Origin: a virus
Direction: 5' to 3' (one strand)
IMG/VR virus record: IMGVR_UViG_3300036792_000069
Span: 1-22,181 of that record
Length of the DNA stretch: 22,181 bases
Positions 4,648 through 20,559 of this stretch are shown piece by piece (within the stretch, counting starts at the first letter, position 1; the number at the start of each line of letters is the position of its first letter). The translations under genes and the position numbers were made by a program. Under the pieces are notes generated by a model that saw only the letters and a list, made by a program, of their open reading frames with translations, ran no database searches and was not told the DNA's origin.

Positions 4648-5084
4648 TGCTGACTCAAGGCGAGAGAGATATCAGACAGGACAAGATCATCGATGCTTCC
4701 AGTCGAGACACCGAGGAGACCGAGCGATGGATTTTGGTAGACGGTGCAGGAGACGCGATAGTCCACCAGCACAGGCATGCGTCGAACCTCGTAAATGAAG
4801 CTTTTGATGATGACGGAGCGAAACTGGCCGCCCCAGGTCAGCGGCAGCACTTGGCCGGCGGCGCGCATCGCATCGAGCTGCAGTGCCGTGCTGTAGGCAT
4901 TGTCACCGAAGAACTGGCCATGCCATCGGACGTCGGCCTCGTCAGGTCCGAGCGTATCGATGACACGATTGCCGCCAGGAAGCTTGTGCACCACCATCCA
5001 TTGATGGCCGCCGCCCGGCATCGCCTCGGGCGTCGAGAAGTCATCGAAGGTGATACCTCCGAGGGTCAGAACATCGGCAGGCAT
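4644..5084 (-). CDS. gpU-like baseplate/tail protein, 146 aa
   Basis: The ATG at 5084 is preceded by GAGGGA at a usual distance. The protein has the layout of the P2 gpU-like group and of the N-terminal part of Mu gpN-type proteins. It starts VLTLGGITFDDF, then HKLPGGNRVIDTLG and DVRWHGQFFG, then a helix QLDAMRAAGQVLPLTWGG and a strand pair with RVSCTVYQNP. In these families the block 'aL......G....L.wGg' and the final beta strands are conserved. It lies directly after the tape measure, where gpU/gpN-like proteins are expected. Such proteins initiate the tube at the baseplate or cap it. The exact subfamily is uncertain because the similarity is only at pattern level. Confidence 0.7.
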   Translation of the reverse strand: MPADVLTLGGITFDDFSTPEAMPGGGHQWMVVHKLPGGNRVIDTLGPDEADVRWHGQFFGDNAYSTALQLDAMRAAGQVLPLTWGGQFRSVIIKSFIYEVRRMPVLVDYRVSCTVYQNPSLGLLGVSTGSIDDLVLSDISLALSQQ

Positions 5085-5099
5085 TGTTCCGTCCCTCGG

Positions 5100-6878: not shown

Positions 6879-6934
6879 GTTTTCACCTATTGCGCTTTTT
6901 TCAGGGGTGCCCCTCGGGTCAAAGGAGACGGGTG

Positions 6935-7561
6935 ATGAGGTTGTTTTTCATCGGGCCGCGCCTTTTCGGCATTCGGCCAGGTATCAGCGTGAACCCAAGA
7001 GACCTGAAGAAGCTTGTCTCCAGCGGGACAGCCAGCAGCGCTGGCAGCATTACCGGAGGGTTCGTTTACGTCCTCAAGAACAAGTCCGGTCAGCACAAGA
7101 TCGGATCGTCGGTCGACCCCATCCAGCGCATCAACCAGCTGCAGACCGGATCGGCAGAACCTCTCGACTTCGCCTGGGTCGGTGTTTCGCCGGAAGGCGC
7201 CTACACCAGAATCGAGCGCTATGCTCACACCCTTCTCGAAGCCCAGAAGATACCAGGCGCCGGCGACGAATGGTTTGCAGTCCCGGCCTCCATCGCTATC
7301 GGTGCCGTTCATGAGGCCGCGATGCGTCTCGGCGATCCGATCCAGCAGGTGCAACCCGGCATGGTACCGCAGATACTCGCTGTGGCAGCCCAGGCAGCGC
7401 GCCTGGAAGCGCGCCCCGACGTCGGCAAGTATTGTGGAATACTCAATCCGTTGCCGCGCTACATCCGATGGCCGCTGACGGCCTTGTTCAGCCTCATCAT
7501 CGGTATCGCCGCCGCCGGCATCGTTTTCGTGATCGCGGCAATGATCCAGAGCGGAAGCTAA
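6935..7561 (+). CDS. T5orf172/MUG113-type GIY-YIG domain protein with C-terminal membrane helix, 208 aa
   Basis: This is the only plus-strand gene. ATG at 6935 is chosen because AAAGGAG lies seven bases upstream; a TTG at 6890 in the same frame has no such site. Residues 43-118 fit the T5orf172/MUG113 branch of the GIY-YIG fold: FVYVLKNKSGQHKIGSS (first motif VYVL, second KIG), an Arg at 65 in DPIQRINQLQTGS, and Glu94 in RIERYAH, followed by DEWFAV. Arg and Glu are the expected catalytic positions. Residues 179-203 form one hydrophobic helix (LTALFSLIIGIAAAGIVFVI), so the C-terminus is probably membrane-anchored. The gene lies antisense to the late operon between a gp10-like gene and the tape measure, and looks like an added moron gene. 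Function is unknown; a nuclease with a host-altering or exclusion role is inference. Confidence 0.8.
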   Translation: MRLFFIGPRLFGIRPGISVNPRDLKKLVSSGTASSAGSITGGFVYVLKNKSGQHKIGSSVDPIQRINQLQTGSAEPLDFAWVGVSPEGAYTRIERYAHTLLEAQKIPGAGDEWFAVPASIAIGAVHEAAMRLGDPIQQVQPGMVPQILAVAAQAARLEARPDVGKYCGILNPLPRYIRWPLTALFSLIIGIAAAGIVFVIAAMIQSGS

Positions 7562-8001
7562 GGGATCAGCTTCGGTGCAGTGAAGGCGGCGACCAGCCGC
7601 TCGCCGATGATCTTTTTTATCTCGGGCATCTTGCGCACCATCGTTTCCTTCAGGAAGGAGCGTGGCGGGATTTTCGAGGTACCCATCTCCTGATAGACAG
7701 CGATGTCGGAGTTGGATCCGATGCGCGCTTCGCGATGATCGCTGCAATGCTGGATCGTGTCCCGCATCTCGCCGGTCCGCAGCAACGGTTCATTCGGTTC
7801 GAAGCCGAGATACTCGCGCTGTTTCTGGGTCGACTGCGCAAGCTGCGGCCAGCCATAGTCATAGGTGCCGATGACTTCCTTGGCGCCCTTGTCGACCAGC
7901 TTGGCGACCTCTTTGAGGGCCTCGCGATTCTGGTGCTCGATCTCGACAACGAACCCGCCGAGGAGAGCGCCGAACTGGTCCAGTGTCAGCTCTCTGCTCA
8001 T
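7558..8001 (-). CDS. HK97 gp10-like tail/neck completion protein, 147 aa
   Basis: The ATG at 8001 overlaps the lysin stop as ATGA. The product resembles the HK97 gp10/virion morphogenesis group. It has an N-terminal helix pair (LDQFGALLGGFVVEIEHQNR), then LLRTGEMRDTI near residues 73-83, then IAVYQEMGTSKIPPRSFL near 100-117. The last matches the conserved 'YaryvE.GT...pPRPFL' block. A helical C-terminus follows. Such proteins act at the head-tail joint or as tail completion factors and normally sit in the neck gene cluster; here the gene lies between lysin and tape measure. Its stop shares four bases with that of the convergent plus-strand gene. Confidence 0.78.
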   Translation of the reverse strand: MSRELTLDQFGALLGGFVVEIEHQNREALKEVAKLVDKGAKEVIGTYDYGWPQLAQSTQKQREYLGFEPNEPLLRTGEMRDTIQHCSDHREARIGSNSDIAVYQEMGTSKIPPRSFLKETMVRKMPEIKKIIGERLVAAFTAPKLIP

Positions 8002-9290
8002 TTCTTTGCCGTTTCAGTATCTCCGGGCCCACCCCACTCGAAGTGACCCCAGTCCGGATTGCGCCAATCGCCGCCGGAGACCATGTTGTGCTTTGCGAGA
8101 GCGGCACGCAGCTCCGGCCCGTGTGTCTCACGCCACCGCTCGAAATCACGCGATGTGGCGTTACGACCCGACTGGTTGATGTCGATGGCATTGCCGTAGG
8201 CATGCTGAGACCAGCGATTGGTGCCGGCAATGTGCCTTCGGTTGTAACCGCCGACATCGTGGATCGGTGCGCCGGCCTTCTCCAAGTCCTCGACGAAGCC
8301 CTTGATGGCGTCGGCGCTATTCTTGTGAACCGTGAAGGTATGGCCGCCAGAGGTCTTGATCGGCACCATGGACGATGCCGGAGGCGGTTCGCCGCGGTAA
8401 TAGTTCGCGCTCGGATGCGATGATGGCTGACGAGAGGCCTGGGGCACCGCCGTCGGATTTTTATCGAACTGCGCCTGACGCCGAGCGATCTTGTTGCCCC
8501 AGTACCGTTCGAAACCGGCATGGGTCATGTTTTCCGGCGTGCGAGCTCCGGCCGGAAGATTGCCGGCGATGTTGGTCATGGCACCGCGGGTGTAGAAGCC
8601 GAGCCCCTGCTGGTGCATGAGGTACATCTCGGTATTGGTCGGATCGCGACCGAATTTCTTGTGAAAGGCGCTCTTGTTCGCCTCGAACATGCGCGCCGCC
8701 GCCATCGCATTATCGTGCGCGCTGTAGGGATTGCCGCCGGCACCGAAGCGAGCCCACTCGGAATCCTTGCCACGCGTTCCGACCTGGAACAGCCCCTTGT
8801 ACTGGGTATGCTTGTTGGCGTTCGAGCTCGGGTCCATGTTGGACTCGATGGAGGCTACCGACTTCATGAACGACGGGCTGAGGCCATGGGCCTTTGCCGC
8901 CTCCTCAATCGCCTCATTGACCGTCTGGCTACCTTTCGGTGCGGGACGCTCACGGACACCGGATTTGTGCGCAGACTTACCCGCGCCCTCGCCTGCCTCG
9001 CCGGAACGCGGTTCATGGTAGGGGAAATGGTGGTGGCGCGGCCGGTGCGGCTCGCCCTCCGGTACCGTGCCGGGGTGATGGCGTGGATGGTGGTCGTGGT
9101 GCTCTTGGGGAGAAGCGCCATGTTCCTGGGGAGGAGATGGCGACATGCCGTGGGGAGGCTCGGAGGAGCGGCCCTCCGGGGTGTAGCCATTCTCGTCCGG
9201 GATGAACGGATCGATGGCGTGCTCGCCGACGATCCATTCGATAGACCCGACCGTGGACCCGTCGACTGTGATGGTGCCGACGCGCGTCAT
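7998..9290 (-). CDS. Virion-associated lysin: lytic transglycosylase-like plus M15 peptidase-like domains, 430 aa
   Basis: The protein has four parts. Residues 1-42 form a short domain that may anchor it to the virion. Residues 43-93 are a Pro/His-rich linker with 13 histidines. Residues 118-270 resemble a lytic transglycosylase: Glu149 in SVASIESNMDPSS, then KGLFQVG, then YLMHQQGLGFY, which would cut glycan strands. Residues 310-420 resemble M15 D-Ala-D-Ala peptidases, with zinc ligands His363 and Asp370 in SQHAYGNAIDI and His416 in WGHFEW. The ATG at 9290 is preceded by CGGAG and sits one base after the stop of the chaperone frameshift product. The likely role is local peptidoglycan opening during DNA entry. 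A lysis endolysin is less likely, because the gene is in the tail cluster with no holin nearby. Confidence 0.85.
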   Translation of the reverse strand: MTRVGTITVDGSTVGSIEWIVGEHAIDPFIPDENGYTPEGRSSEPPHGMSPSPPQEHGASPQEHHDHHPRHHPGTVPEGEPHRPRHHHFPYHEPRSGEAGEGAGKSAHKSGVRERPAPKGSQTVNEAIEEAAKAHGLSPSFMKSVASIESNMDPSSNANKHTQYKGLFQVGTRGKDSEWARFGAGGNPYSAHDNAMAAARMFEANKSAFHKKFGRDPTNTEMYLMHQQGLGFYTRGAMTNIAGNLPAGARTPENMTHAGFERYWGNKIARRQAQFDKNPTAVPQASRQPSSHPSANYYRGEPPPASSMVPIKTSGGHTFTVHKNSADAIKGFVEDLEKAGAPIHDVGGYNRRHIAGTNRWSQHAYGNAIDINQSGRNATSRDFERWRETHGPELRAALAKHNMVSGGDWRNPDWGHFEWGGPGDTETAKK

Positions 9291-9291
9291 C

Positions 9292-9857
9292 TCATCTCCG
9301 CTCGATGAACTTCATCCGGCCCCAGTCAAATTCCTGGTCGCCGTTCTCGAACTTGGCGAAGGTCACCGCATAGCCGAGCAGCTCCCAATCCGGCAGAGCA
9401 TGGGCAACATCGAACGGGACTCCGTTTTTCACCGCATAGCAGATCAGGCGAAAGACGGAGTCCTCTGTTAGTTTTTTGCTGCGGCCAGCGCGTCTGCGGG
9501 CGCGTCCTCGGCCTGATTGAGCCTGGTGGCGGCGGTGCCGGCGGCCGCGAGGCCTTCGACATCGAGTCGATCATAGATCGCATCGAGCTCGCCGCGCGAT
9601 CTCGGGAACGGGATCGGATCGCCATCGATCTCGCAGACCGTGGCGGCGATCATCAGCGGCAGCCGATGCGGCACTAGGATCTTCTCGCCGGTCTCGCTGA
9701 GCACTTCATCGGAGCCGGACAGGTCGGCGGTGAGGCCCGCGGCCTTGGTCTGCTCGGATGGCTTCAGGCGACGGACGCCGATCAGGCGGCCGAACTTGTC
9801 GGCCTCGCGCTCGACCTTGTTGTAACGGGCAAGCTTGATCTCGGACTCGGTAGGCAT
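9292..9857 (-). CDS. Tail assembly chaperone, minus-1 frameshift product (gpGT-like), about 188 aa
   Basis: The zero-frame product shares its first 128 codons with this one. At A AAA AAC (9477-9471) ribosomes can slip back one base and bypass the immediate TAA. The minus-1 frame then reads 59 more residues (starting LTEDSVFRLICYAVKNG) to a TGA at 9294-9292. That extension contains LPDWELLGYAVTFAKFENGD followed by EFDWGRMKF, the pattern of frameshift extensions of Mu-type chaperones (aromatic, 'FDW..M'). In the family the short form coats the tape measure and the long form recruits tube subunits. The extension has no start codon of its own, so simple gene calling would miss it. Confidence 0.88.
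9468..9857 (-). CDS. Tail assembly chaperone, zero-frame short form (gpG-like), 129 aa
   Basis: ATG at 9857 is chosen because GGAG lies five bases upstream. The 129-residue product starts MPTESEIKLARYNKVEREAD, is rich in charged residues, and contains LIGVRRLKPSEQTK near residue 26-39 and LMIAATVCEIDGDPIPFPRS near 68-87. This fits Mu gp41-like tail assembly chaperones ('...a.v..idG.p...p.s...'). It ends in an Ala-rich helix and AAAKN directly on the slippery site, with the TAA next. It lies downstream of tube and sheath, as expected. Chaperones of this type bind the tape measure and are absent from mature virions. Confidence 0.87.
   Translation of the reverse strand: MPTESEIKLARYNKVEREADKFGRLIGVRRLKPSEQTKAAGLTADLSGSDEVLSETGEKILVPHRLPLMIAATVCEIDGDPIPFPRSRGELDAIYDRLDVEGLAAAGTAATRLNQAEDAPADALAAAKN
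9471..9477 (-). promoter_or_regulatory. Programmed minus-1 ribosomal frameshift site, A AAA AAC
   Basis: On the minus strand the zero frame reads GCA AAA AAC TAA, so the heptamer A AAA AAC is in the correct phase for a minus-1 slip (X XXY YYZ). The stop follows directly. No strong downstream stem or pseudoknot is obvious by eye; the immediate stop codon may supply the pause. The re-read frame is open for 59 codons with tail chaperone signatures. Confidence 0.88.
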
Positions 9858-9872
9858 GCATTCTCCAATGGC

Positions 9873-9900
9873 AAAAGAAAACCCCGCCGGGTTGGCGGGG
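9873..9900 (-). terminator. Hairpin plus U-rich tail between tube and chaperone genes
   Basis: Minus-strand hairpin with arms 9900-9894 and 9888-9882, a perfect 7 bp GC stem with a 5-base loop, followed by TTTTCTTTT. It lies just after the tube stop, and its U-run ends about ten bases before the chaperone ribosome binding site. No promoter would fit downstream, so read-through is implied. Confidence 0.8.
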
Positions 9901-9907
9901 CTTGGGA

Positions 9908-10345
9908 TCAGGCGATCTGGACCTTGCGGCTGGCGTAGCCTTCGACCTTGACGGTCACCGCCTTGTCGCGGCTGATGTTGCCGTGATCTGGCATGAACAG
10001 CACCATCTTCTGGTACTGATAGCGGCTAACGCTGCCGTCGGGGTTGGTCGTGGTCTGATTGAGGAAGCCCGGCTTCTGCACCGAACCGGCGCGGAAGTTC
10101 GCGTCGGCCTTCACCATGAAGTCCTCGAGATCGGAACCGGTTCGGGTGATCGTGAACTCGATCCGGAAGCCGTCGGGGATATAGCCGTAGCTCGGGTCAT
10201 CGTTGTACGGCATGTTCTTGATGTCGTGCTTCAGCTCGGTGATGGCGACATTCTGGATGTCACCCATATTGAGCAGCGTGCCACTCGTGCCGTCATAAAA
10301 CATGAGCGAGTAGTCGACGCCGACGTTCATTCCATTGACTGGCAT
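9908..10345 (-). CDS. Tail tube protein, contractile tail (Mu gpM / P2 FII type), 145 aa
   Basis: ATG at 10345 is preceded by GGAG ten bases upstream. The protein starts MPVNGMNVGVDYSLMFYDG and has the alternating beta pattern of tube subunits: VAITELKHDIKNMPYND near residues 33-49, RIEFTITRTGSDLEDFM near 61-77, and a final strand KAVTVKVEGYASRKVQI. Tube subunits stack as hexamers around the tape measure and share a fold with the sheath-bound type VI tube. It is encoded directly after the sheath gene, the invariant sheath-then-tube order of contractile tails. Hairpins with U-runs flank it on both sides. Family assignment rests on size, beta pattern and position. Confidence 0.87.
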   Translation of the reverse strand: MPVNGMNVGVDYSLMFYDGTSGTLLNMGDIQNVAITELKHDIKNMPYNDDPSYGYIPDGFRIEFTITRTGSDLEDFMVKADANFRAGSVQKPGFLNQTTTNPDGSVSRYQYQKMVLFMPDHGNISRDKAVTVKVEGYASRKVQIA

Positions 10346-10356
10346 CTGCGGTCTCC

Positions 10357-10389
10357 AAAAGAAAACCCGCCCTGGTAAGGGACGGGTTT
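10357..10389 (-). terminator. Hairpin plus U-rich tail between sheath and tube genes
   Basis: Minus-strand hairpin with arms 10389-10379 and 10372-10363, a 10 bp GC-rich stem with one bulged base and a 6-base loop. It is followed by TTTTCTTTT and then directly by the GGAG of the tube ribosome binding site. The U-run touches the binding site, leaving no space for a promoter. Confidence 0.82.
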
Positions 10390-10411
10390 CGGGTCAGGGG
10401 TTGATGGTGGA

Positions 10412-12364
10412 TTAGGCGTTGACGTTGACGGCTTGCGCGAACTGCGACGGGTTCGGCTGCGTCGACTGCACGGTGACGGTGACGTTGCCGCCACCCTGGA
10501 ATTTCACCACGAAGTAGCGGACGACGTTCAGGTAGCGGACCTCCCAGTAGAGGAAGAGGTAACCGAGAGCCTGCAGGTTTGCCGGGTTGTTGTTGAGATC
10601 GCACTGGACCAGCCACGGCGTATCGATCATGCCTTGACCGTTGATGCCGGTGCCGACCTCGGGGCTCGCGAGCTGCGCCGAGAAGCCGTCGAACAGGGCC
10701 TTCGCTTGCGCGCGGGTCTGGTCGTTCGGCTGGATCGACTGCAGCTTGCCGATGAAGCTTCCCGCCGCCTTGCTTTCGGCAGCACGGATCAGGAAGTTCG
10801 TCATGCGGGTGTACTCGATACCGTTTGCGGCGGTGTTCGAGCTCGCATTGCGGCCGGTGGCAAACGAGAAGTAGTATCCGCCCGGCGACTGCACCGGAGG
10901 CAGGATGGTGTCGATGCCGCCCGTGTTGATCTGCGTCAACTCGGTGTCGGAATAGGTCTCGCCGAGCACCGAACGCTCCGTCGAGGAGATGCCCTGCAGC
11001 GGCTTGTTCAACGGGCTCTGCTGCGGCGAGAGATTGCCGCAGATGCCGATGCCGAACGCCGCCGGATTGATCAGGCGGGAGACGCCATTGTAGCTGTCAT
11101 AGAACGTCGGCCAGTCGCCGAGGATAAGCCAGAACCACGGCGAGTCGACGCCGGAGTTGATGCGGATCTGAAGCGCGTCCGCAATGGTGTCGCCGGAGGT
11201 CGTTGCGAACACCGGGAGCATGGTCTCCGACAGACCGAAGGAGACGACAGCCGCATAGTCTGCGATGGTGGAATGATCGCAGAGCGTGAAGCAGTCGCAA
11301 TTGGAGTTGCGCAGCGCATACATGCCCTTGCGCGGCACGATGTCCTGACCCATGAGGGTGGCATCGGTGACGCCGGCATCACCATCGGTGCCGCCACTCA
11401 GCGTGATCGGCGTCGACAGAACAGGCGGGGTCGTCGAGACGCCCGCGGTGGCGACAACGAACTGTGACGGACCATGGAACGGCGTGCCGTCATTGATGGC
11501 ATTGGCGAGGTTCGTCCAGAACGTCTGCCAGGTCCCGAGACCGCCGGCGAGCGTCGCACCCGACAGCGTGATGTTGGTCGAGGTCTTGGCAAGCGTCAGC
11601 GCATTGCCGGCGGTGCCGGCGTTGGCGCCGCTGGAGACGAACTGGTTGGCTGTAATCTTCAGCACCGAGCCGGACAGGCTGTAGCTGCACTTCACGAGGC
11701 CGGTGTCGGCCGATGCCAGCAAAAACGCCAGCAGGTTCGACAGCGTCACCGCGAGCGAGGAGCCGATGTTGACCTGCAGACCGGTGGCGCCGGACGCCAC
11801 GAAGGTGATCGCCGAGCCGGCAATCGTCAGCGTATCTGCCGCGGTCGGCTGACCGGCGAAGGTTGCGGTACCGCTTGCGGGCGTCGGACCTGCGATGTTG
11901 TTGAACTGCTCCGGCACGATGCCGGGGAAGGCAACAACACCCATGAAGGTATTGAGCGCAGAGCCGTTCTGCATCGAGAACTGGATCGCATTGCCGAGCG
12001 TGCCGGTGTACTTGCCGGTGAGCGTGACGCCGCCGGTCGTGCCGGATGCGGCAAGATCGGTGCCGTCGGAGACGCGGATCATGTAATAGCCGATGGCGCC
12101 ACCGACCTGCGAGGCTGCGGCGACATACGATGCGATGTCGTACTTGCGGATTTTCGGCGGACCAACCGTCAGGGCGACGTCGGCCGGCTTCGATCCGGGG
12201 ATCAGCGCATTGAGCGGACCCCAGCTGCCGACGCCGACCAGACCTTCGATGTTGGTCGGCGTGCCGAGAATGTTCGGCACAGGCAGGATGATGTCGCCAT
12301 AGACGCCAGGGACTTGCAGCGCAGCAAGGTTCTGCTGGCCATCGAGGAAGACATTACCGGTCAT
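10412..12364 (-). CDS. Tail sheath protein (Mu gpL type), 650 aa, with inserted beta domain
   Basis: ATG at 12364 follows GGAG by nine bases. The sheath contracts around the tube to drive penetration. Family features are an N-terminal [13 protein letters not shown], then [12 protein letters not shown] near residues 41-52 and AALAIQ-like spacing, plus a C-terminal core with [29 protein letters not shown] and [20 protein letters not shown]. The last part mediates subunit linking. Residues about 158-276 are an inserted Gly/Thr/Ala-rich beta domain ([20 protein letters not shown] to TLAGG) that would project outward. At 650 residues it is longer than Mu gpL (about 495), mostly owing to insertions. 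Hairpins with U-tails lie on both sides, suggesting separate high expression. Confidence 0.92.
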
Positions 12365-12378
12365 TGCGGTTGCTCCAA

Positions 12379-12408
12379 TAAAAAACCCGCCGGTCAGGGC
12401 GGGCTTTC
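12379..12408 (-). terminator. Hairpin plus U-rich tail upstream of the sheath gene
   Basis: Minus-strand hairpin with core arms 12403-12398 and 12391-12386 (6 bp, GC only), extended by a G-U pair and A-U pairs to about 10 bp, with a 6-base loop. TTTTTTATT follows and then GGAG of the sheath ribosome binding site. A-runs on one flank and T-runs on the other mean it could stop transcription in both directions. Confidence 0.8.
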
Positions 12409-12439
12409 AAAAAACGAGTGGATGGGGATTTGGTGGGGT

Positions 12440-12646
12440 TTACTTGGCGCGAACGAACTCGACGCCGTTGATCTCGACCTCGTCGACCTTGGCCGGCTTC
12501 TTGGCCATTGCCTGCGGCGGCGCCGGGACGCGGACGAAATGCTTGTCGCGCTGCGATTTGACGCGCTCGACTTCCGACGATTCGGTGATGCGGTCGCCCT
12601 TCTTGTAGGGGCCCCACGGGTGGACGCAGACGAGGTGGTGGTCCAT
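12440..12646 (-). CDS. Small pre-sheath protein of unknown function, 68 aa
   Basis: ATG at 12646 is preceded by GAGGAAA, a good ribosome binding site. The 68-residue product starts MDHHLVCVHPWGPYKKGDRI, followed by VERVKSQRDKHFVRVPAP and a basic C-terminus ending VEFVRAK. The beginning (HPWGPYKKGDRIT...) is a pattern I associate with small phage proteins found before the sheath or near the connector. The location matches Mu gp38, but I see no clear residue-level match. It is a real gene by start signal, size and position; its role is unknown. Confidence 0.7.
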   Translation of the reverse strand: MDHHLVCVHPWGPYKKGDRITESSEVERVKSQRDKHFVRVPAPPQAMAKKPAKVDEVEINGVEFVRAK

Positions 12647-12670
12647 GAGAGTTTCCTCTTTCTCTTTTCT

Positions 12671-13552
12671 TCAGGTGATTGCGGTAGCGACGGCGGAGGT
12701 GCCAATCGGGCCAACCCTGGAGATCGATACCTGGGTTGAGGTGATGGTGAAGATGTCGAACTTCTCGACGGTGGCGTACTCGATGTCGTAAATCAGGTCG
12801 CGCCGATAAACGCCGGTGACCTGCTTGTCGTCATTGAGGTAGGTGCCGTGATAGCGCACGATGGCCTGCGAGGTGTCCGGCATCGACGGCTTGATCGTCT
12901 GCTTGATGACGTTGTCGATGGCGCTCGCAAGCGCCGTTCGTACCGTCGGTGATGGCGCCCATACCGTCACCATGACGTGCTGGCATTGCCGCCGCGTGAC
13001 CTTGCCGGCGACGCCCTTGCCGCCTTGACGAACCGTCATCGAAAAGACGAACGGGATCGTGAGCGTGGTTGCCGTTGCCGTTGCCGAGTAACCGGCCGCA
13101 ACAGCCTGTGCCGCGAGCGCCGCCAGCATCGCTGCAACATTGGCCCCGGTCTGCGAGCAGATCACGGCGTCATCGAGGACGACGGTGAGAAATTCGCCCG
13201 GCGAAAGTGTCCCGGAGACGGTGATGACCTGGTCCGTGACCGCGACCGTGGTCGTTACCGCGGGTTCGGAGATCGTGTAGGTGTGGTCCAGGATCTGATA
13301 AGGGACGCCGCCGGCGATGCCCCATGGGAAGATCGAGACGTTGCAGACCGGCCCGCCCTCGCGCGCGACGAGGTTGCCGGTCGCATCCTTGACCTTGCCG
13401 GAAAGATCGAGCTCGACCTGATCGGGAAGCGGCCAACCCTCGAAGATGCGGACATCCATATTGGCGACCGACGGCTGTGAGGTGCCGTTCGGGTAGGTCG
13501 CGACGAGGGCCTGCTGTGCGAGGTAGGCCGTGACATCGGTGATATCCGCCAC
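12671..13552 (-). CDS. Tail terminator/tail completion-like protein with inserted domain, 293 aa
   Basis: The start is a GTG at 13552 preceded by GGAGGTG six bases away; no ATG fits better. The ends resemble tail terminator-like proteins (Mu gp37 position). An N-terminal helix ADITDVTAYLAQQALVATYP and IFEGWPLPDQVELDL lead to VSIFPWG, and the C-terminal half has TALASAIDNVIKQTIKPSMPD and VTGVYRRDLIYDIEYATV. Residues about 95-185 form an inserted Ig- or sheath-type beta domain (QVITVSGTLSPGEFLTVVLD to VRQGGKGVAGKV), similar in layout to the one in the sheath. Position between head closure and sheath genes supports the assignment. The terminator caps the tube and binds the neck. Confidence 0.7.
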   Translation of the reverse strand: MADITDVTAYLAQQALVATYPNGTSQPSVANMDVRIFEGWPLPDQVELDLSGKVKDATGNLVAREGGPVCNVSIFPWGIAGGVPYQILDHTYTISEPAVTTTVAVTDQVITVSGTLSPGEFLTVVLDDAVICSQTGANVAAMLAALAAQAVAAGYSATATATTLTIPFVFSMTVRQGGKGVAGKVTRRQCQHVMVTVWAPSPTVRTALASAIDNVIKQTIKPSMPDTSQAIVRYHGTYLNDDKQVTGVYRRDLIYDIEYATVEKFDIFTITSTQVSISRVGPIGTSAVATAIT

Positions 13553-13553
13553 G

Positions 13554-13940
13554 TCACACCTCCAGTCGGATACAATTCAGCTTCCAGCCGAGGATGTTGG
13601 GATACGCCTGCGCGACCTGGTAGCGATAGCCGACGTCGTCAACAACGATGTCACGATCACGAATTGAACCGTAGCCTGGGACCGCACCGGCGGGCAGATA
13701 GATATCCCAGGTCGGATTGGCGACGGCATCGGCAGGCAGTGCCGAGTCGCCGCGCTTCTTGCCGGTGGCGCCGGCCTGGATGCTCGCCTGCACTCCGGTG
13801 AAGAGCACGGTTTCGCCGTTTGCGCTGCCGGGATCGGTTGTCGCCTGCTCGCCGGAATAACCGGTGAGCCCGATGGCGGTGCCGTTCAATCCCGCAACCG
13901 TCTTGGCGCGACGGATTTCGATCTTGCGGATATAGAGCAT
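13554..13940 (-). CDS. Head closure / head-tail joining protein, 128 aa
   Basis: ATG at 13940 overlaps the connector stop by one base (TGATG); a TTG codon one position earlier is an alternative start. The product starts MLYIRKIEIRRAKTVAGLNG and is beta-rich. It includes ETVLFTGVQASIQAGATGKK, GDSALPADAV, PTWDIYLPAG and IVVDDVGYRYQVAQAYPNIL, ending LNCIRLEV. This arrangement (small barrel with a gap for 'id..G..y.V......n..G....v.l') is the pattern of head closure proteins, which plug the connector and receive the tail. Position between connector and tail terminator-like genes agrees. Assignment by pattern and synteny only. Confidence 0.7.
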   Translation of the reverse strand: MLYIRKIEIRRAKTVAGLNGTAIGLTGYSGEQATTDPGSANGETVLFTGVQASIQAGATGKKRGDSALPADAVANPTWDIYLPAGAVPGYGSIRDRDIVVDDVGYRYQVAQAYPNILGWKLNCIRLEV

Positions 13941-14827
13941 CAAAACCCAACCACGCGCTTGTAGTTCATCAAGGCGGAGACGATGATCGGCGGCAGCGGA
14001 ATTTTCGTGGGATCCGTCACCGAGCTGTTGCCCGCCATCTGGATCGTGGTGTCACCGGCCGAAATCTTGTTGACGTTGGCGCCGATGGTCGGGATTTGGC
14101 CCGAGGCATAGATCATCTTCAGCCAGTCGAGGCAGGCCTGCTCGATCTCGGCGGGGACCGGATTATATCCCGCGGTGTAGGAGGCTCGAATGTTCTGGAA
14201 GCCTCTGCAGAACGAATAACCAACGACAAAGATCGCGGCATCGTCATTGTAATAACCCGGCATCTGCGAGCTGCCCGACCATGCCCCGGCAGGGATCGTC
14301 TGGCCGTTGATGGTCAGCGACTGCACCGAGACCAGCGGAATATCCGGCACAAAGAGCTTGTAGCCGCCCTGCCCGTTGAAGGTCCGGCTATAGCTTGCCT
14401 GGACGACCTGATAACCGAGCCAGGCCTGGATTTGAGACGAGATCGCCGCCATGCCTCGGGCGATGAAGCCGTTGGTGTCCTGCGAGGCACCAAGAAACTG
14501 CATCGCGTTCGAAAGCGTCGTCAGGCTCGGCGGCGGTGCCGGTCGCACCGGCAGCTGGACCAGCTCGTCGAGCGTGTCGCCGGCCGCGGTGGTGACCTGG
14601 TTGAGCAGCGTGTAGTTGACGCCGAGATTGCCGCCCGACAGCCACACCTTGGAGATGGTGTTGGTGAAGCTCGACGTATTGATCGTCAGCGTCCCTGACG
14701 CGCCGGTATCACCCGACGTGATCGACCACGTCGAGGTAACGATGGTGTCGCCGGCAAGGCGAAGGGTCCAGTCGAGATCGAAGTCCTCGGTCTCTCCTGG
14801 TTGCTTTCCGCCCTGCCAAACCAACAT
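13940..14827 (-). CDS. Head-tail connector (HK97 gp6-like) fused to an N-terminal beta domain, 295 aa
   Basis: ATG at 14827 lies four bases after the previous stop. Residues 10-96 form a beta domain (EDFDLDWTLRLAGDTIVTST, SKVWLSGGNLGVNYTL, ELVQLPVR) normally found as a stand-alone small phage protein of fibre or adaptor type. Residues 100-295 are gp6-like connector: FIARGMAAISSQIQAWLGYQ (helix), RTFNGQGGYKLFVPDIPLVS, then RASYTAGYNPVPAEIEQACL followed by DWLKMIYASG, the family's 'Y.aGy..vP..ie.a...l...'. The connector ring joins the portal to the head closure protein. The fusion would hang a beta domain at the neck. Fusion is seen directly; its display role is inference. Confidence 0.78.
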   Translation of the reverse strand: MLVWQGGKQPGETEDFDLDWTLRLAGDTIVTSTWSITSGDTGASGTLTINTSSFTNTISKVWLSGGNLGVNYTLLNQVTTAAGDTLDELVQLPVRPAPPPSLTTLSNAMQFLGASQDTNGFIARGMAAISSQIQAWLGYQVVQASYSRTFNGQGGYKLFVPDIPLVSVQSLTINGQTIPAGAWSGSSQMPGYYNDDAAIFVVGYSFCRGFQNIRASYTAGYNPVPAEIEQACLDWLKMIYASGQIPTIGANVNKISAGDTTIQMAGNSSVTDPTKIPLPPIIVSALMNYKRVVGF

Positions 14828-14830
14828 GGC

Positions 14831-15016
14831 TCAATCGTCTCCGTCGGTCGCGATGACCGTGTTATTTTTTGGCTCCGCAGTAGCCGTTCGGTTGCGCACC
14901 GGTACAGCAGCGGTCCGGTTGATGAGGTCGGTGATTGCAAGACTTGCGGCGGGCAGGAACAATCTTCCGCTGCCGCAAGCCATCACGATGGACGTTGCGC
15001 TTAGCTGAATGCTCAT
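14831..15016 (-). CDS. Short protein of unknown function, 61 aa
   Basis: ATG at 15016 is preceded by GGAGG at 12 bases, a long but usable spacing. The product starts MSIQLSATSIVMACGSGRLF, has a hydrophobic middle (FLPAASLAITDLI), and ends with a polar tail (NNTVIATDGDD). Its Ala/Ser style is like that of the much longer protein directly upstream, so the two may act together. No family is recognised. It is accepted as a gene because the stop is three bases before the next ATG and the spacing on both sides is that of an operon. Confidence 0.5.
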   Translation of the reverse strand: MSIQLSATSIVMACGSGRLFLPAASLAITDLINRTAAVPVRNRTATAEPKNNTVIATDGDD

Positions 15017-15024
15017 GACCGCGA

Positions 15025-16653
15025 TCAGCCTCCAGGTGGACGTTTCGATTGAGCCTGTGCGGTCCTGTCCTTGGGCGAGGCGGTCACGATCCGGTCAGAC
15101 TGTCCCGAGATGATCCGGCGCGGTGACGGAAGGAAGGTACGGGCATGCATGACCAGCCGCATCATCGTCGCGGCGCCCATGAACAGGAGCTGTGCCGACG
15201 CCCCGATCCTGGCGCTGGTATTGGCGATAAACAGGGATGCCGTTTCGAGTTTCGTCGACCCGGACGGGACCGCCGATGCCTTTGCCGCGGCCCTGAAGAA
15301 GGCCTGCAGCTGCATGACGCGTTTGAAGTCGGCACGCGCGACACCGATGGCCTGGACAGCTACATTGATCGCAGCTCTACCGGAAGCCAAAGTTCGATGC
15401 GAACCTTGAACCGCGGCGCGTGCACCGAGGACTACGGCGACGCCAAGTGACGATCCGGCGGACGCCGTCATCGCCATCCTGGCATTCAGGGTCGACAACC
15501 CGACGGCAATCGCCGATGCAGTTGCGGACGATGTCGCCTTGACCTGGAGACCGGCAGCGTATGCGGCGGCACCCGTTGTCGAGATGATGCTGAGCGCCGC
15601 TGCGGTGATGCCGGCGCGGCCGGCGGGCTCGATGGCACCGGAGGCCCTTGCATCTGCGGTAGCAGACAGGCTTGCGGATCCTGCAACGTCTGACTTCGAC
15701 TGCAGCGCCAGGAACGACAATCCGCGAATGAAGGCGATCCATCTCGGCGGCTGTGACGGCAACATCGCCGCGGCGAAAGCCGTCGATGACAGGCCGGTCC
15801 TTGCTGTCGTTGCCGCTTGTGCAACGGCTCGAGCGAGAGCTTGCGCCGCAATCTTCACCGACACCGATGGATTTTGCGAGGCGACCGACAGTGCCGCCCG
15901 CGACACGGCCGACATCACCGCGGTCCTGATCAGCGGGAGCGCCGCGGACGATGACGTATAGGCAGCGCCGACAAGATCGGTGAAGCCGGCGATTGATGTC
16001 ACGACCTGTGCCGAGAATGCGGTGACACCGAACAGGCTTACGAAACCTGCCGGGACCGTTTGACCAAGCGTTCTTGCAATCGATCTGGCGCCAAGCCAGG
16101 CCACCATGGTGAGCGCCGGCGCATTCGCCGACGATGCCGCCGTTACCGCTCCAGAGATGGCAGTAACGAACCCGCCGACAATCGATGCCGACACCATCAT
16201 GGCGGAGTCGACAGAAAGATTGGCAACGAAATTCGGAAGAAGGCGAGCGGATGAGATCGATGCCTGTCTGGCGAACAGTGCGGCCCGCAGTATCGGGAGA
16301 GATGCAGCGGCAGCAGACGAACGTACAGTCGCCGCGATTGCGGCGAACAGCTGCGGATGCTGATCGACTGCGGCTACCGCAAACGAGCGCGCCGCGATGC
16401 GCGCCGTCGCCAAGACACCTCCGCTCGATGTCGCACTCTGGGCAGCGCGAGAACTCAATCCGGTGACAGCAGTCGAGTTAGACCTGCCGAAAGTGGACGA
16501 GATGTTGCGGATCGACATCCGCGCCATCGGACTTGGTGCCGACCTGAGTACAGCGAATAGCAGTGTCCGAGCGGAGACCGCCAAGGTCGTTGTCAAACTC
16601 GGTACCTGCCCGAGCGCCTGGCGCCCGAGTGCATCGAAACCGAGAAGGCACAT
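15025..16653 (-). CDS. Low-complexity Ala/Ser/Arg-rich structural protein, 542 aa
   Basis: ATG at 16653 lies seven bases after the preceding stop; an upstream start would overlap that gene. The first residues MCLLGFDALGRQALGQVPSL have a short leader ('GFdalGR.ALGQ.P') that I associate with repeat-containing phage structural proteins. The rest is a very long run rich in Ala, Ser, Arg, Thr, Gly and Val with few Asp or Glu, in degenerate units such as 'A...A..AR.......A'. It ends in a basic, Pro-containing tail. No enzyme motif is seen. Third-position GC in a sampled stretch is about 64 percent, only modest codon bias. The 542 open codons and tight spacing support coding. It may be a repetitive fibre or neck/head decoration protein; the function is unknown. 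Confidence 0.6.
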   Translation of the reverse strand: MCLLGFDALGRQALGQVPSLTTTLAVSARTLLFAVLRSAPSPMARMSIRNISSTFGRSNSTAVTGLSSRAAQSATSSGGVLATARIAARSFAVAAVDQHPQLFAAIAATVRSSAAAASLPILRAALFARQASISSARLLPNFVANLSVDSAMMVSASIVGGFVTAISGAVTAASSANAPALTMVAWLGARSIARTLGQTVPAGFVSLFGVTAFSAQVVTSIAGFTDLVGAAYTSSSAALPLIRTAVMSAVSRAALSVASQNPSVSVKIAAQALARAVAQAATTARTGLSSTAFAAAMLPSQPPRWIAFIRGLSFLALQSKSDVAGSASLSATADARASGAIEPAGRAGITAAALSIISTTGAAAYAAGLQVKATSSATASAIAVGLSTLNARMAMTASAGSSLGVAVVLGARAAVQGSHRTLASGRAAINVAVQAIGVARADFKRVMQLQAFFRAAAKASAVPSGSTKLETASLFIANTSARIGASAQLLFMGAATMMRLVMHARTFLPSPRRIISGQSDRIVTASPKDRTAQAQSKRPPGG

Positions 16654-16660
16654 GTTGTCT

Positions 16661-17095
16661 TTAACTCGTTGGCACCACCAGAGTTGGACGACCCATGGCG
16701 GTGGCGATATCATTCATGCGCGCTTGACCGAGAACTGAAACGAGCGTCTGCCATCCTGTCTGGAAACGTGTGCTCGAAATATCCATGGGGTCCCGTCGAG
16801 AGACCATGGAGTTCCAGAGCAATGACATCCTTCCGGTCGAGTCGCCGGCGATGGCGGCATTGATTTTGACCTGGTCGGCCGGCAAGAGCTGCGTGATCAA
16901 ATCCTGCGACAGGATGGTGATTGGCGGCGGCGGTGGTGCTACATATGGATCGGTTGCGCCGCCGGCGGCCGCATAGACCAGATAGGCGGCATAATCCCGG
17001 TTGGCGGGATTGGCCGGAATGATGGCGCTGTCCTTGTTGCGGACAACCAGCATCGAGCCATCCACCGGATCTTTTTCGAACCGATAGTCAGCCAT
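16661..17095 (-). CDS. Fibre-assembly-like protein downstream of the candidate fibre, 144 aa
   Basis: The ATG at 17095 shares one base with the stop of the fibre gene (TGATG), so translation is coupled. Residues 1-45 read MADYRFEKDPVDGSMLVV then AIIPANPANRDYAAYLVYAA, the 'IP.dp.NrDy..YL.w...G' pattern of proteins that accompany tail fibres. A Pro-rich linker (PPPPP) follows near residue 52. The rest is helical, with LLWNSMVSRRDPMDISSTRF and LVSVLGQARMNDIATAMG. Gene position and pattern suggest a fibre chaperone or adaptor for the product encoded at 17095-18552. Not a certain family assignment. Confidence 0.6.
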   Translation of the reverse strand: MADYRFEKDPVDGSMLVVRNKDSAIIPANPANRDYAAYLVYAAAGGATDPYVAPPPPPITILSQDLITQLLPADQVKINAAIAGDSTGRMSLLWNSMVSRRDPMDISSTRFQTGWQTLVSVLGQARMNDIATAMGRPTLVVPTS

Positions 17096-18552
17096 CACAT
17101 CCTCGCATCGAGTACGAAATGGGCGCCGAGCGATAGTGTTGGTCCGGTGTTGACAATGTTGCCGCCCCAAAACCGAATACCTTCGGTGCCGGGGCTGGCG
17201 GCGGAGGCAGTGATATCGGCATTTGCTGCCAGATCAGCGGCTTTCCCCAACAACCCCGTCACCGGCGATATCATCGTGACGGTAGGCTGAAGACGCTTGG
17301 ACTTTTTGTAGTTGAAGCTAGCGCCGTTCGAGGATCCGTTGCTGATGGTGCCGCTCGCCAGCTGAAACACGAGCTGCTGCATGCCCTCGAAGATGTTGGT
17401 AGCCGCGACAATATTCTGCGGCACCTGAAAATAGCTGTAGGTCTTCTCGTAATACCTCTGCGAGAGATCGAGCTCCTGGCCGAACGGGCGCGCGATGAAT
17501 GGCGCTCGAGTCGATGACGGCACCTCAAGTCCTGGCAGGATCGTCAGACCCGTCCACTCGAAAGTATTCGACGTTGACGAAACGATGTTGATGTTGGGGC
17601 TACCCCCCGCGACCCAGATACTGAGTAAGGCGCCATTCCGATAATCTGTAAATCCGGTCCACGTCGTTTGGGCGGGAAATGTCGCGGTTATATACTGCGC
17701 CGTATTTGCGGCGGTGATTGTAACACTGACGTCGACAAAGCTGCCGCCACCGTTGTTCTCCATGCGGAGATTCATTGATCCAGCAACGCTGGATTTAACC
17801 CAAAAGCCAGCCGTAACAGGCTGGGCTTGCGAAGTGCCCCACATCGCCTTGTTGAAGCGATAGCCTTCGATGGGCGTGCGGAATGCAATAAAGTCGCCCG
17901 AGGTCGGGCTACCAACCGTACTTACAGTCAGTTTGAGTTCTTTGGCATATCCTGGGAAAACCGAGGCGACCTGCTGAATCGAAACAACAGGGTTGCTTCC
18001 CGTTACAACATTGGTGACATACACGCCGTCGATGACGTAGGCGAAATTGTGATTTGTCAGCGTTACGGCATTGCCGACATGCTCCTGGTCCACCTCGAGG
18101 GAGCCGTTGAACTGCATGCCGCTGTAGGCCATCGCATCGAACGGCGCGGCGTAGACGTTCTGACGTACCTGTTTCTTTTGCGTGTCGGTGAAGCTGTTGG
18201 CTTCCTCGATTGAGATCAAATCTTCCTTGACGCCGATGATGGCGACCTGCGGTGCAGCCGTAAAGCTGATCTTGGTCCCAGCCCCGCTCTGACCTGGCGT
18301 CTTGGTGCCGGTGTTCGAGGAATTGTAGAGGACCGTGGTGCGCGCGAAGGTGCCGGTCGACGAATTGTAGGCGCCTTCGCCCATCTCCATCTGTGATAGA
18401 TCGGCGGAGATCGCGAGGTACTTGTAGACCGTGCCATTGACAGCATTGGCGGCCGTTGGCGACAGCGATCCAGCCACCGTGGTGCTATAGACCCAGTCGG
18501 TGGTGCCGCCCGCAGTCGGAACGAAGCGGCAGTTGTCGAGGAAGGCGGCCAT
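17095..18552 (-). CDS. Candidate fibre / receptor-binding structural protein, 485 aa
   Basis: ATG at 18552 lies eight bases after the preceding stop; no strong ribosome binding site is visible, so coupling is likely. The N-terminal part MAAFLDNCRFVPTAGGTTDW, with TVYKYLAISADLSQMEMGEG and FARTTVLYNSSNTGTKT, is the adaptor-like beginning seen in many phage fibre proteins. About residues 215-370 form a beta-rich region with GFWVKSSVAGSMNLRMENNG and SIWVAGGSPNIN, like a carbohydrate-binding jelly-roll. Then comes APFIARPFGQELDLSQRYYE, a 'EL.LsqRYYeKsy' motif common in fibre proteins. The C-terminal region (TVTMISPVTGLLGKAADL...) would be a trimerising tip. A receptor-binding role is inferred. Confidence 0.7.
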   Translation of the reverse strand: MAAFLDNCRFVPTAGGTTDWVYSTTVAGSLSPTAANAVNGTVYKYLAISADLSQMEMGEGAYNSSTGTFARTTVLYNSSNTGTKTPGQSGAGTKISFTAAPQVAIIGVKEDLISIEEANSFTDTQKKQVRQNVYAAPFDAMAYSGMQFNGSLEVDQEHVGNAVTLTNHNFAYVIDGVYVTNVVTGSNPVVSIQQVASVFPGYAKELKLTVSTVGSPTSGDFIAFRTPIEGYRFNKAMWGTSQAQPVTAGFWVKSSVAGSMNLRMENNGGGSFVDVSVTITAANTAQYITATFPAQTTWTGFTDYRNGALLSIWVAGGSPNINIVSSTSNTFEWTGLTILPGLEVPSSTRAPFIARPFGQELDLSQRYYEKTYSYFQVPQNIVAATNIFEGMQQLVFQLASGTISNGSSNGASFNYKKSKRLQPTVTMISPVTGLLGKAADLAANADITASAASPGTEGIRFWGGNIVNTGPTLSLGAHFVLDARM

Positions 18553-18560
18553 GAAAAGGA

Positions 18561-19418
18561 TCAGGCAATCGTCAGCGTCACCGTGGACGCGGCGAACGAT
18601 GCCGACACACCGGTCGGGATCGACTGTTGCGTGACCTGACGGATCATGCCGTTGCCGGTCGTCGACGTGTTGACGCCGGTCACCGTGACGGTGTCGGTTG
18701 TCACCGAGCTTGCGGTCTGGATACCGGTGAGGTTGCCGGCGGAGAACGTCGGAGCGGTGCCGCCGTATTCCGTCGAGAACACAAAGGAGCCGGCGGTGGG
18801 AATGCCGTTGGCATGCGCCGTGATCACGGCCGGCGAGTTGGCCGAGATCGTTGCGGGCTGCCACTGGAAGTTACCGAGGTAGTCCCAGACCAGGAGATTG
18901 CCGCCGGTCACCGCATCGTACAGGCCGAAGGCGACAACGGTGCCCCAGTTGGCGGTTGCCTGCGGGAAGCTGATCACCGAACCATTCGACGTGCTCGATG
19001 GTGCGGTGCCGGAACCCTGGGCGAATGCGGAGATGTTGAGAGTATCGCCGGAGGCGACGGCGTGCGCGGCATTGGCCGTCAGCGTCAGTGTCGTGGTGCC
19101 GACACCGCCGGCAGCAATGGTGCCGATCTCGTTTCCGTTGGTCGGATCGTAGACCGTCATGCCGGGCTGAATCCACGACGGGATCGAGGCCGCGCCGATG
19201 GTCGGGCTCGAGGTCGTGGTCGACGCGTTGGTGACGATTGAGCCGGCGACCTGCTGGCGCGCATAGGCGCCGCCGGTGACCTCAGTGAAGCCGGTACCGG
19301 CATCGGTGCCGACAGCCGTGAACAACGCGAGATAGACTGCCGGGAGCGCGGGCATTGCGATCTGGCCGGTCAGGTAGTTCAAGACATTGTCGGAAGCGAA
19401 GTTGGTGAGACCGGTCAT
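18561..19418 (-). CDS. Phage fibre-type structural protein, 285 aa
   Basis: I placed the start at ATG 19418 (GGAAACA upstream); the frame extends further upstream but only through the neighbouring hairpin and gene. The product starts MTGLTNFASDNVLNYLTGQI, then PAVYLALFTAVGTDAGTGFT and EVTGGAYARQQVAG. It later contains ISFPQATANWGTVVAFGLYD and AVTGGNLLVWDYLG. This is the 'vYvgLft..ptdag.g.ev.ggsYaR......FP.at..WGtv...gifDa..GG.ll' layout of a widespread phage fibre-type family. Residues about 70-125 (SWIQPGMTVYDPTNGNEIGT and following) look like an insertion, and the C-terminus is a Thr/Val-rich beta stretch. It is probably exported to the virion surface as head or tail fibre component. Confidence 0.72.
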   Translation of the reverse strand: MTGLTNFASDNVLNYLTGQIAMPALPAVYLALFTAVGTDAGTGFTEVTGGAYARQQVAGSIVTNASTTTSSPTIGAASIPSWIQPGMTVYDPTNGNEIGTIAAGGVGTTTLTLTANAAHAVASGDTLNISAFAQGSGTAPSSTSNGSVISFPQATANWGTVVAFGLYDAVTGGNLLVWDYLGNFQWQPATISANSPAVITAHANGIPTAGSFVFSTEYGGTAPTFSAGNLTGIQTASSVTTDTVTVTGVNTSTTGNGMIRQVTQQSIPTGVSASFAASTVTLTIA

Positions 19419-19432
19419 GGCTGTTTCCGCGC

Positions 19433-19462
19433 AAAAGAAAAACCCGCCTGCGAAGGCGGGTT
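19433..19462 (-). terminator. Hairpin plus U-rich tail upstream of the fibre-type gene
   Basis: Minus-strand hairpin with arms 19462-19454 and 19449-19441, a perfect 9 bp stem with a 4-base loop, followed by a run reading TTTCTTTT. It lies 23 bases after the upstream gene's stop codon and just before the ribosome binding site of the gene starting at 19418. Confidence 0.83.
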
Positions 19463-19485
19463 GGGTTGATGGAATGTTGGTGGGT

Positions 19486-19884
19486 TTAGCCGCGCTTCTT
19501 CTGCGACTTGTCGTCACCCTTGACGTCCGCGGCCGCCTTGTCGACGCCGCCGGCGAGATCGGCTTCAGCCTTCGCGACGGCACTTGCCTTCGCCTTGACT
19601 GCGGCCTTCAGCATCTCAACCATCTTGATGGCGGGAAGCGTGGTATCGGCGACGGCGATACCGAGATGACCGAGCATCTCGTGCAGGTCGTCGCGGGACA
19701 TCTTGACCTCGTCCTTGGCCTCGACATCGATGTGCGCCAACTCTTCGGGCGAACGGAAGCCATGCGGCCGCAGCGCGGCAACGCGGTCGACGGGCACGTC
19801 GACGAGGCCATCGGAGCCAACGTCGAAGACCTGGCCTTCATAGGAATAGTGCCTGCAACCTTCGGGTGCCTTGAGGCAGACCAT
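19486..19884 (-). CDS. Small post-capsid protein of unknown function, 132 aa
   Basis: ATG at 19884 follows GGAGAG by six bases. The product starts MVCLKAPEGCRHYSYEGQVF and then DVGSDGLVDVPVDRVAALRP, a beta-hairpin pattern ('aPeG....s.dG....v..dG.v.Vp...v..L..hGF') that is widespread in small phage proteins encoded after the capsid. A helical middle part follows (RDDLHEMLGHLGIAV). The C-terminal 45 residues are rich in Lys and Ala (MLKAAVKAKASAVAKAEADL) and very polar, probably flexible or DNA-contacting. Hairpins with U-tails flank it on both sides. The role could be head decoration or head-tail joining; it is not proven. Confidence 0.65.
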   Translation of the reverse strand: MVCLKAPEGCRHYSYEGQVFDVGSDGLVDVPVDRVAALRPHGFRSPEELAHIDVEAKDEVKMSRDDLHEMLGHLGIAVADTTLPAIKMVEMLKAAVKAKASAVAKAEADLAGGVDKAAADVKGDDKSQKKRG

Positions 19885-19913
19885 ATCAAACTCTCCAGTG
19901 TGTGATGGACATG

Positions 19914-19937
19914 AAAAAGGGCGCTAGATGCGCCCTT
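19914..19937 (-). terminator. Hairpin overlapping the homing endonuclease stop, with U-run
   Basis: Minus-strand hairpin with arms 19937-19930 and 19924-19917, a perfect 8 bp stem with a 5-base loop holding the first bases of the stop codon TAG, followed by a T-run. The stop of the GIY-YIG gene lies across the loop and 3' arm, so translating ribosomes could disturb the structure. Confidence 0.75.
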
Positions 19938-20559
19938 CGCTCTTCAGGTATTTGCCGTTCGGACCCCGAGGTCGTTGGGCATGTGAAGCCCGCATCTTGG
20001 CGAGCGTTTCCGGCGGATGCGTCTTGCCTCTCATGTGAGGCGTCATCATCCGTCCGTACTCGGACTGTCTGGCTCGACGTTCTGGATCAGCCATCGCAGC
20101 CGACACCGCTGCAGATATTTTGGCTCGATGTTCTTCGGTTCGTTTTTTACCGAGAAGAGCGGCCGCGATCTTGGCGCGATGTTCCGGGCTCTTCGGTTTA
20201 CCCTTATGCGCGGCGCGCAATTTGATGCCGACAGTGATCGGCTGTGGCACACCTTCACGGGTGCCGGTCACCTTGCAGATATTATAACCAAACCGATCAT
20301 CGCTCGTTTGTAGAGCGTCGATCCAAATCTGTTCGCGAGCGAGGAGCTTGTCCTTATCGCAGTATTCGATCATGGCGAAGGAAAAGGCTCCCTCACCGTC
20401 ACGATCCCACGTCCGCTGCAACTGCGGAGAATGATGCTTTCCCCATCGCAGCATGTAACGATGCGCGACAATTCTATGACGAGCGTCGACCGAGGAGCCG
20501 ATGTATCGCTTGCCTGACTTAATATGGAGAATGCAATAGATGCCGGAGCGGGGCGCCAT
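19924..20559 (-). CDS. Free-standing GIY-YIG homing endonuclease with NUMOD3-like repeats, 211 aa
   Basis: Residues 6-83 are a GIY-YIG nuclease: SGIYCILHIKSGKRYIGSSV carries the GIY and YIG motifs, Arg27 in DARHRIVAHR is the catalytic arginine position, and Glu76 in LLAREQIWID is the metal-binding glutamate (I-TevI numbers 27 and 75). Residues 117-196 have three NUMOD3-like DNA-binding repeats: KGKPKSPEHRAKIA, GKKRTEEHRAKIS and RGKTHPPETLAKMR. It is a mobile gene lying directly after the capsid gene, typical for free-standing endonucleases, which cut phages lacking them and spread by repair. The ATG at 20559 lies inside a hairpin, and no good ribosome binding site is visible, suggesting low expression. 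Confidence 0.92.
   Translation of the reverse strand: MAPRSGIYCILHIKSGKRYIGSSVDARHRIVAHRYMLRWGKHHSPQLQRTWDRDGEGAFSFAMIEYCDKDKLLAREQIWIDALQTSDDRFGYNICKVTGTREGVPQPITVGIKLRAAHKGKPKSPEHRAKIAAALLGKKRTEEHRAKISAAVSAAMADPERRARQSEYGRMMTPHMRGKTHPPETLAKMRASHAQRPRGPNGKYLKSEGRI

Follow-up and report, generated by a model that had tools for sequence, protein, structure and literature searches.

A candidate stop-and-start cassette of hairpin, U-rich tract and ribosome binding site at gene boundaries of a contractile-tail phage operon

The DNA analysed here, referred to below as the window, is the 22,181-base virus record IMGVR_UViG_3300036792_000069. All of the genes read in it lie on the minus strand, and PHROG and Pfam searches of their proteins identified a contractile-tail structural operon. 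Between genes of this operon we found a compact unit in which a GC-rich hairpin is followed by a 9-nucleotide (nt) U-rich tract, the GGAG Shine-Dalgarno (SD) sequence of the next gene and its ATG; this strict layout exists at two sites, and looser versions exist elsewhere in the window. Judging from sequence, we consider it somewhat probable that the unit is a phage gene-boundary cassette, which would stop some transcripts after one gene and would start the translation of the next gene from read-through RNA.

One strict cassette lies before the tail sheath gene (12377–12403; this and all of the following window features are on the minus strand). Its stem, CCCGCC/GGCGGG at 12403–12386 (-11.4 kcal/mol), is followed by the U-tract TTTTTTATT (12385–12377), which is abutted by the GGAG of the sheath gene (12373–12376), so that the SD stands at +9 from the end of the stem. 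The other, between the sheath and tube genes (10357–10386), has its stem at 10386–10366 (-11.8 kcal/mol), the U-tract TTTTCTTTT and, again at +9, the GGAG of the tube gene (10353–10356). Two further copies are loose. The copy between the tube and tail-chaperone genes (9873–9900) has a stem at 9900–9882 (-14.8 kcal/mol) that begins 7 nt past the tube stop codon, the tail TTTTCTTTT and an SD at +15, and the copy between a 132-amino-acid (aa) gene and the head-protein gene (19434–19460) has a stem at 19460–19443 (-12.3 kcal/mol), the tail TTTTTCTTTT and a weak SD, GGAA, at +14. The fifth hairpin (19914–19935; stem 19935–19919, -11.6 kcal/mol) contains the stop codon of a GIY-YIG homing endonuclease gene and is followed by an SD only at +22; it looks like an ordinary gene-end terminator.

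The first-pass annotation of this DNA, made from its letters alone, had taken these five hairpins as alike enough to suggest a recurring element, and all of them were recovered within a few bases of where it had placed them, with GC-rich stems, U-tracts on the minus (coding) strand and the next ribosome binding site (RBS) nearby (15, 9, 9, 14 and 22 nt beyond the stems that begin at 9900, 10386, 12403, 19460 and 19935, respectively). The tail that it had noticed at three sites is indeed present at 9900, 10386 and 19460. The likeness of the copies extends to the layout of GC stem, U-tract and SD and not to any single shared stem sequence. Nor are the five sites equal: when a cassette is defined by GGAG at +8 to +10 plus a start codon, two qualify as strict cassettes, two are loose, and one belongs to the inserted endonuclease gene. 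At all five the U-tract at the base of the stem is TTTT or longer, and the predicted terminator scores are all positive (15.7–37.7); whole-gap folds gave z-scores of -1.9 to -2.5 at the four sites other than the GIY-YIG site. The window sites are best described as predicted intrinsic terminators, not as one exact repeat.

A scan for compact terminators (hairpins of up to 26 nt, -10 kcal/mol) recognized five on the minus strand of the window, namely the five sites, and none on the plus strand, against a mean of 0.168 and a maximum of two in 500 dinucleotide shuffles; the 26-nt limit was picked after a wider scan of hairpins up to 40 nt, which gave seven minus-strand sites at -10 kcal/mol or better (shuffle mean 1.3, maximum 5; 200 shuffles). 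A generic terminator scan of both strands yielded 19 hits where 14.4 ± 4.1 were expected, which is not significant, and listed only two of the five sites. No match to Rfam 15 in the window exceeded the gathering score.

The fixed spacing was evident among relatives, which were fetched by their sheath protein and not by the hairpin and comprise 61 viral loci and four genome contigs, two of them from Bradyrhizobium. These 65 sequences contain 46 distinct compact terminators, 23 of which have an SD and a start codon in the next 40 nt, a combination found at 270 of 4000 random sense positions. After the 51 distinct terminators of the relatives and the window taken together, and with no start codon required, GGAG occurs 16 times at +9 and five times at +10, and at most twice at any other offset, the expectation being 0.13 per offset. 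Terminator-scan hits in 66 sequences numbered 73 in the sense and 12 in the antisense orientation (near-copies counted). The 21 strict cassettes carry 17 distinct stems, and their linkers also vary (TTTTTTATT, TTTTTCTTT, TTTTCTTTT and others). Before the sheath gene the element of the relatives reads AACCCGCC, a variable loop, GGCGGGTTTTTTATTGGAG and ATG, its position and tail being the same as in the window. In the 12 full records of relatives there are 12 copies of the tail pattern TTTTNNTTGGAG, spread over six records (the reversed pattern occurs twice), always on the structural-gene strand of its own record; such tails lie on the coding strand of the late structural region and, where the gene is known, precede head, sheath or tube genes.

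The first-pass annotation had proposed looking for the same tail before sheath and tube genes of related phages. Under a strict presence rule, with 38 distinct rows of 53 kept and rows lacking the needed flank left unscored, a cassette exists upstream of 13 of the 36 scorable distinct sheath genes and in nine of the 33 sheath-tube gaps, and the others lack it. Placed on the sheath tree, its presence requires four changes at the sheath-upstream site and seven in the sheath-tube gap. The cassette comes and goes among relatives and is dispensable, not essential, because most of them lack it.

The unit is not confined to this family. The exact joint GGCGGGTTTTTTATTGGAG, searched with the 5' arm that would pair with GGCGGG left out of the pattern, was found in at least 119 viral stretches, compared with four when CTCC replaced GGAG and seven when GGAG was displaced by 6 nt; a variant joint, GGCGGGTTTTCTTTTGGAG, was found in 22. 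Among the joint matches listed, 115 of 120 lead into a start codon whose frame spans 40 codons or more; the 5' arm is the full CCCGCC in 29 of 120 and a five-base arm in 83 more. The proteins downstream fall into 35 clusters among the matches listed. When 20 of these clusters were searched in PHROGs, they were found to include tail fibres, tail assembly and tape measure proteins, major head and tail proteins, head proteases, a terminase small subunit and endolysins, as well as several proteins of unknown function. With the 9-nt linker left free, T-rich linkers were present in 26 of 108 distinct matches with GGAG at +9 and in five of 121 with GGAG at +16, among the matches listed; therefore it is a U-tract, and not any spacer, that accompanies the adjacency. 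Positions 1–3 of the linker are T by the filter, and positions 4–6 are mostly T as well. A recurring element, as suggested in the first-pass annotation, is thus borne out, in the form of a hairpin/U-tract/RBS unit that keeps a fixed spacing in relatives and in unrelated phages.

In host genomes most occurrences of the joint go with phage genes. Across 195 genomes of the genus to which Bradyrhizobium Tv2a-2 belongs there are five occurrences of GGCGGGTTTTTTATTGGAG, in three genomes, and four of the five precede homologues of phage genes: one head protein, two sheath genes and one tube gene, the last of which is 62% identical to the window tube. The fifth shares its viral contig with these, but the gene after it is on the opposite strand. 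At locus L220 (1440–1680, G001 contig 8) a cassette has no downstream start codon, and an opposite-strand gene (1470–2135), which by eye may be an HNH endonuclease, begins inside it, as though an insertion had split the cassette from its gene. A second copy of a related tail tube gene, again with this cassette, is found outside the 69-kb viral contig (L221; G001 contig 8, 211246), which suggests that this Bradyrhizobium genome has another related prophage. In 400 kb of chromosome stretches from one Bradyrhizobium genome (prophages not screened out), none of the 26 compact terminators has an SD fused to it, and in 49 kb of E. coli two of 13 terminators are followed by an SD, at +23 and +29.

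If the cassette works as we suppose, part of the polymerases would stop in the U-tract, and the released RNA would end just before the SD and would bear a protective 3' hairpin. Intrinsic termination releases RNA about 7–9 nt past the stem. Polymerases that read on would make a message whose SD starts the next gene without a promoter, and the extent of read-through might depend on a ribosome that trails the polymerase closely or on antitermination by the phage. One operon would in this way yield separate messages for its abundant structural genes, and late-gene transcription from stray promoters would be reduced in a lysogen. The position of the stem relative to the upstream gene is relevant here. 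In E. coli the terminator tR2 is nearly fully repressed near a stop codon, where the ribosome on that codon blocks the hairpin, and regains full strength beyond about 27–30 nt (PMC4824070). The distance from the upstream stop codon to the stem has a median of 28 nt (interquartile range 25–32; 20 scorable of the 21 cassettes) and is 36 nt at the window sheath site, so that cassettes tend to lie just clear of the ribosome-repression zone, the tube-chaperone copy (7 nt) excepted.

Several observations weigh against a stop-and-start cassette. Sequences without it predominate even in the sheath family (23 of 36 sheath genes, 24 of 33 gaps between sheath and tube; reading of the sequences showed that the relatives L020 and L064 lack it), and among 130 assorted phage contigs that were not selected by the joint, GGAG stands at +8 to +10 after only four of 92 terminators; on the latter count the cassette is regarded as common in this sheath family but rarer outside it. 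The hairpin 7 nt past the tube stop codon is located where suppressed termination is expected. Genes that lie beyond five consecutive strong terminators would be starved unless read-through were high, and no Q-type antiterminator (PF03589) was found in 13 records or genomes of relatives, N-type and other antiterminators lying outside that search. 

The first-pass claim that no promoter can fit between U-tract and start was upheld: the gaps leave no room for one, and a crude consensus scan recognized no sigma-70-like site on the minus strand in 1–20000, although host promoters may differ. A moron-type unit, a gene with its own promoter and terminator, would be expected to have a promoter in front of the gene. 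Graded expression or protection of 3' ends had been suggested as well, and a simple polarity gradient across the operon fits poorly, because the sheath and tube genes lie downstream of several hairpin sites. Sheath and tube proteins are needed in many copies.

The sites might instead be ordinary intrinsic terminators packed against the next gene, the adjacency of U-tract and SD reflecting genome economy and common descent only. Each part is a known signal, the stem and tail at the sheath gene are near-identical in relatives, which suggests descent, and a U-tract itself takes 8–9 nt, so that zero spacing alone would yield +9. We nevertheless find packing a rather doubtful account, since the upstream side is loose (the median of 28 nt given above), the counts fall to two or fewer at offsets other than +9 and +10 with no gradual tail, and the register is common to at least 17 distinct stems with differing tails and, among the motif-selected matches listed, to 35 downstream protein clusters. 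Nor did the host chromosome stretches show this adjacency, although phage genomes are the denser ones.

An unlikely alternative is a 5' leader element, in which the hairpin would cap or insulate the downstream message and the U-rich tract would be where ribosomal protein S1 lands or a ribosome waits, giving more translation of abundant proteins. In keeping with this, SD spacing is tighter than the spacing from the upstream stop codon, and the unit is found before head, sheath and tube genes in the sheath family. Yet the T run begins at the base of the stem, as a terminator requires, lambdoid records name such sites terminators, and the predicted probability that the SD is unpaired is 0.07, 0.20, 0.31 and 0.31 at the four cassette-like sites versus 0.94 at the GIY-YIG site; with predicted SD exposure so low, insulation of the RBS by the hairpin is not supported. 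It also appears improbable that the unit is in essence a recombination joint, a short shared boundary sequence at which phages swap genes, an idea that is compatible with a stop-and-start cassette and says how it spreads. A study of HK620 reportedly proposed lambdoid boundary sequences as such gene-swap points. Among 112 sites selected by the motif and having both flanks, a single upstream DNA family meets 10 downstream families and a single downstream family meets 11 upstream ones, a pattern that fits exchange at the joint, and 179 pairs share the upstream flank only, 165 the downstream flank only, 58 both and 5814 neither. However, breaks near the motif are partly built into a set chosen by the motif, which makes this a lead and not proof; the families were clustered on 250 nt of DNA, which splits mosaic genes; pairs that share neither flank, the large majority, are also explained by descent or convergence; and an identity of about 30 nt is little for recombination to act on.

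The closest known systems are the intrinsic (Rho-independent) terminators of bacterial and phage operons, which are likewise intergenic, lie on the coding strand and have a GC hairpin with a U-tract at the stem base; the sites described here differ in holding the SD of the next gene at a fixed +9 or +10, and their termination is predicted from sequence. In phage MG40, a hairpin like CTCGC..GGTGGG, TTTTTTATT, GGAG and ATG precede Eac, as in the window cassettes, and the record has a 'terminator' feature that directly abuts a 'ribosome_binding_site' feature. The HK022 record labels a related site, at the matching place, as the tL4 terminator, and lambda has a similar sequence in which GGAG comes after a longer linker; in lambda, HK022 and 434, tL4 lies before a small gene of the pL operon, upstream of xis. 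These lambdoid cases are single copies in an early operon, whereas the window sites lie in the late structural operon of another phage type. The lambdoid early operon is under N antitermination. Hairpins near an RBS in a phage operon are also known from the intercistronic CUUCGG hairpins of T4. The T4 gene 43 operator is another hairpin of this sort, but it binds its own protein and overlaps the RBS, and no U-tract cassette is described in the available text of the source (PMC3014915). The SAS/ESAS elements of Cluster K mycobacteriophages, whose function is given as unknown in the accessible part of the report (Pope 2011, PMC3203893), resemble the window sites in combining an inverted repeat with an SD-bearing sequence just before start codons, repeated through one genome. 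They differ in their 13-bp GGGATAGGAGCCC core, 17-bp imperfect repeats and association with non-structural genes, and that part of the report describes no U-tract. The window sites are not SAS, the best GGGATAGGAGCCC match in the window having two mismatches and lying inside a coding region (0.34 expected by chance). No description of a fixed terminator-SD register in phages was found in the open literature, most subscription journals being outside the search. Single lambdoid cases are already annotated.

The genes around the cassettes are as follows. The tail sheath gene (10412–12364; 650 aa) matches PHROG 23 (tail sheath, E-value = 1.4 × 10-18). The probable tail tube gene (9908–10345; 145 aa) is named from its position after the sheath gene, since its match, PHROG 12993, carries no function; tube homologues lie behind the sheath in 60 of 61 relatives. 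In five relatives (L019, L038, L048, L056 and L065) the sheath and tube genes are separated by 248–650 nt, perhaps containing small inserted endonuclease genes. The next gene (9468–9857; 129 aa), by its position, is probably that of tail assembly chaperone G. A second frame (9625–9326) overlaps it, and the two probably form a G/GT frameshift pair (9326–9857) with its junction at 9468–9480, where the G frame ends in GC AAA AAA C TAA. The second frame is shifted by -2 (or +1) relative to the G frame, which is the direction of phage Mu, -1 being the usual one. The head protein or Gp80-like gene (18561–19418; 285 aa) matches PHROG 240 (E-value = 8.8 × 10-7) and Pfam PF23140 (E-value = 1.9 × 10-20). 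The GIY-YIG homing endonuclease gene (19924–20559; 211 aa; PHROG 314, PF01541 and PF07460, with a NUMOD3 motif) sits between the 490-aa and 132-aa genes and is not present at this place in the relatives whose gaps were compared; three of these (L004, L005 and L065) have instead a gap of 83–95 nt after the 490-aa gene with a strong hairpin that lacks a U-tract, one example of such hairpins at the same gene borders in some relatives. The 490-aa product was not given the name of capsid protein, its AlphaFold2 model being uninformative (mean pLDDT 29.6). Other products were assigned as a fibre-like protein, a head-tail adaptor, neck and tape measure proteins and baseplate proteins. A 562-aa frame (15025–16713), very rich in small residues, has no PHROG match and no homologue among the relatives fetched by sheath, and is possibly a phage-specific insertion.

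More tentatively, the cassette may be one form of a phage-specific boundary module common to unrelated tailed phages, a possibility that we hold to be open to considerable doubt. Such a module would unite a termination point and an RBS in one register, the released transcript ending before the SD and the read-through transcript carrying it, and a single joint of 30 nt would fix both where a late message has its 3' end and where the next protein starts, and would pass between phages along with the genes that it joins. From one transcript, phages need some structural proteins in hundreds of copies and others in a handful only. If the module exists, such ratios could be set in a simple manner by a compact and portable joint at gene borders, which would explain how genes can be exchanged with their proper expression kept. 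It would also be a useful part for operon building, and the sequence rule of a hairpin, nine U-rich bases and GGAG would predict where RNAs end in phages.

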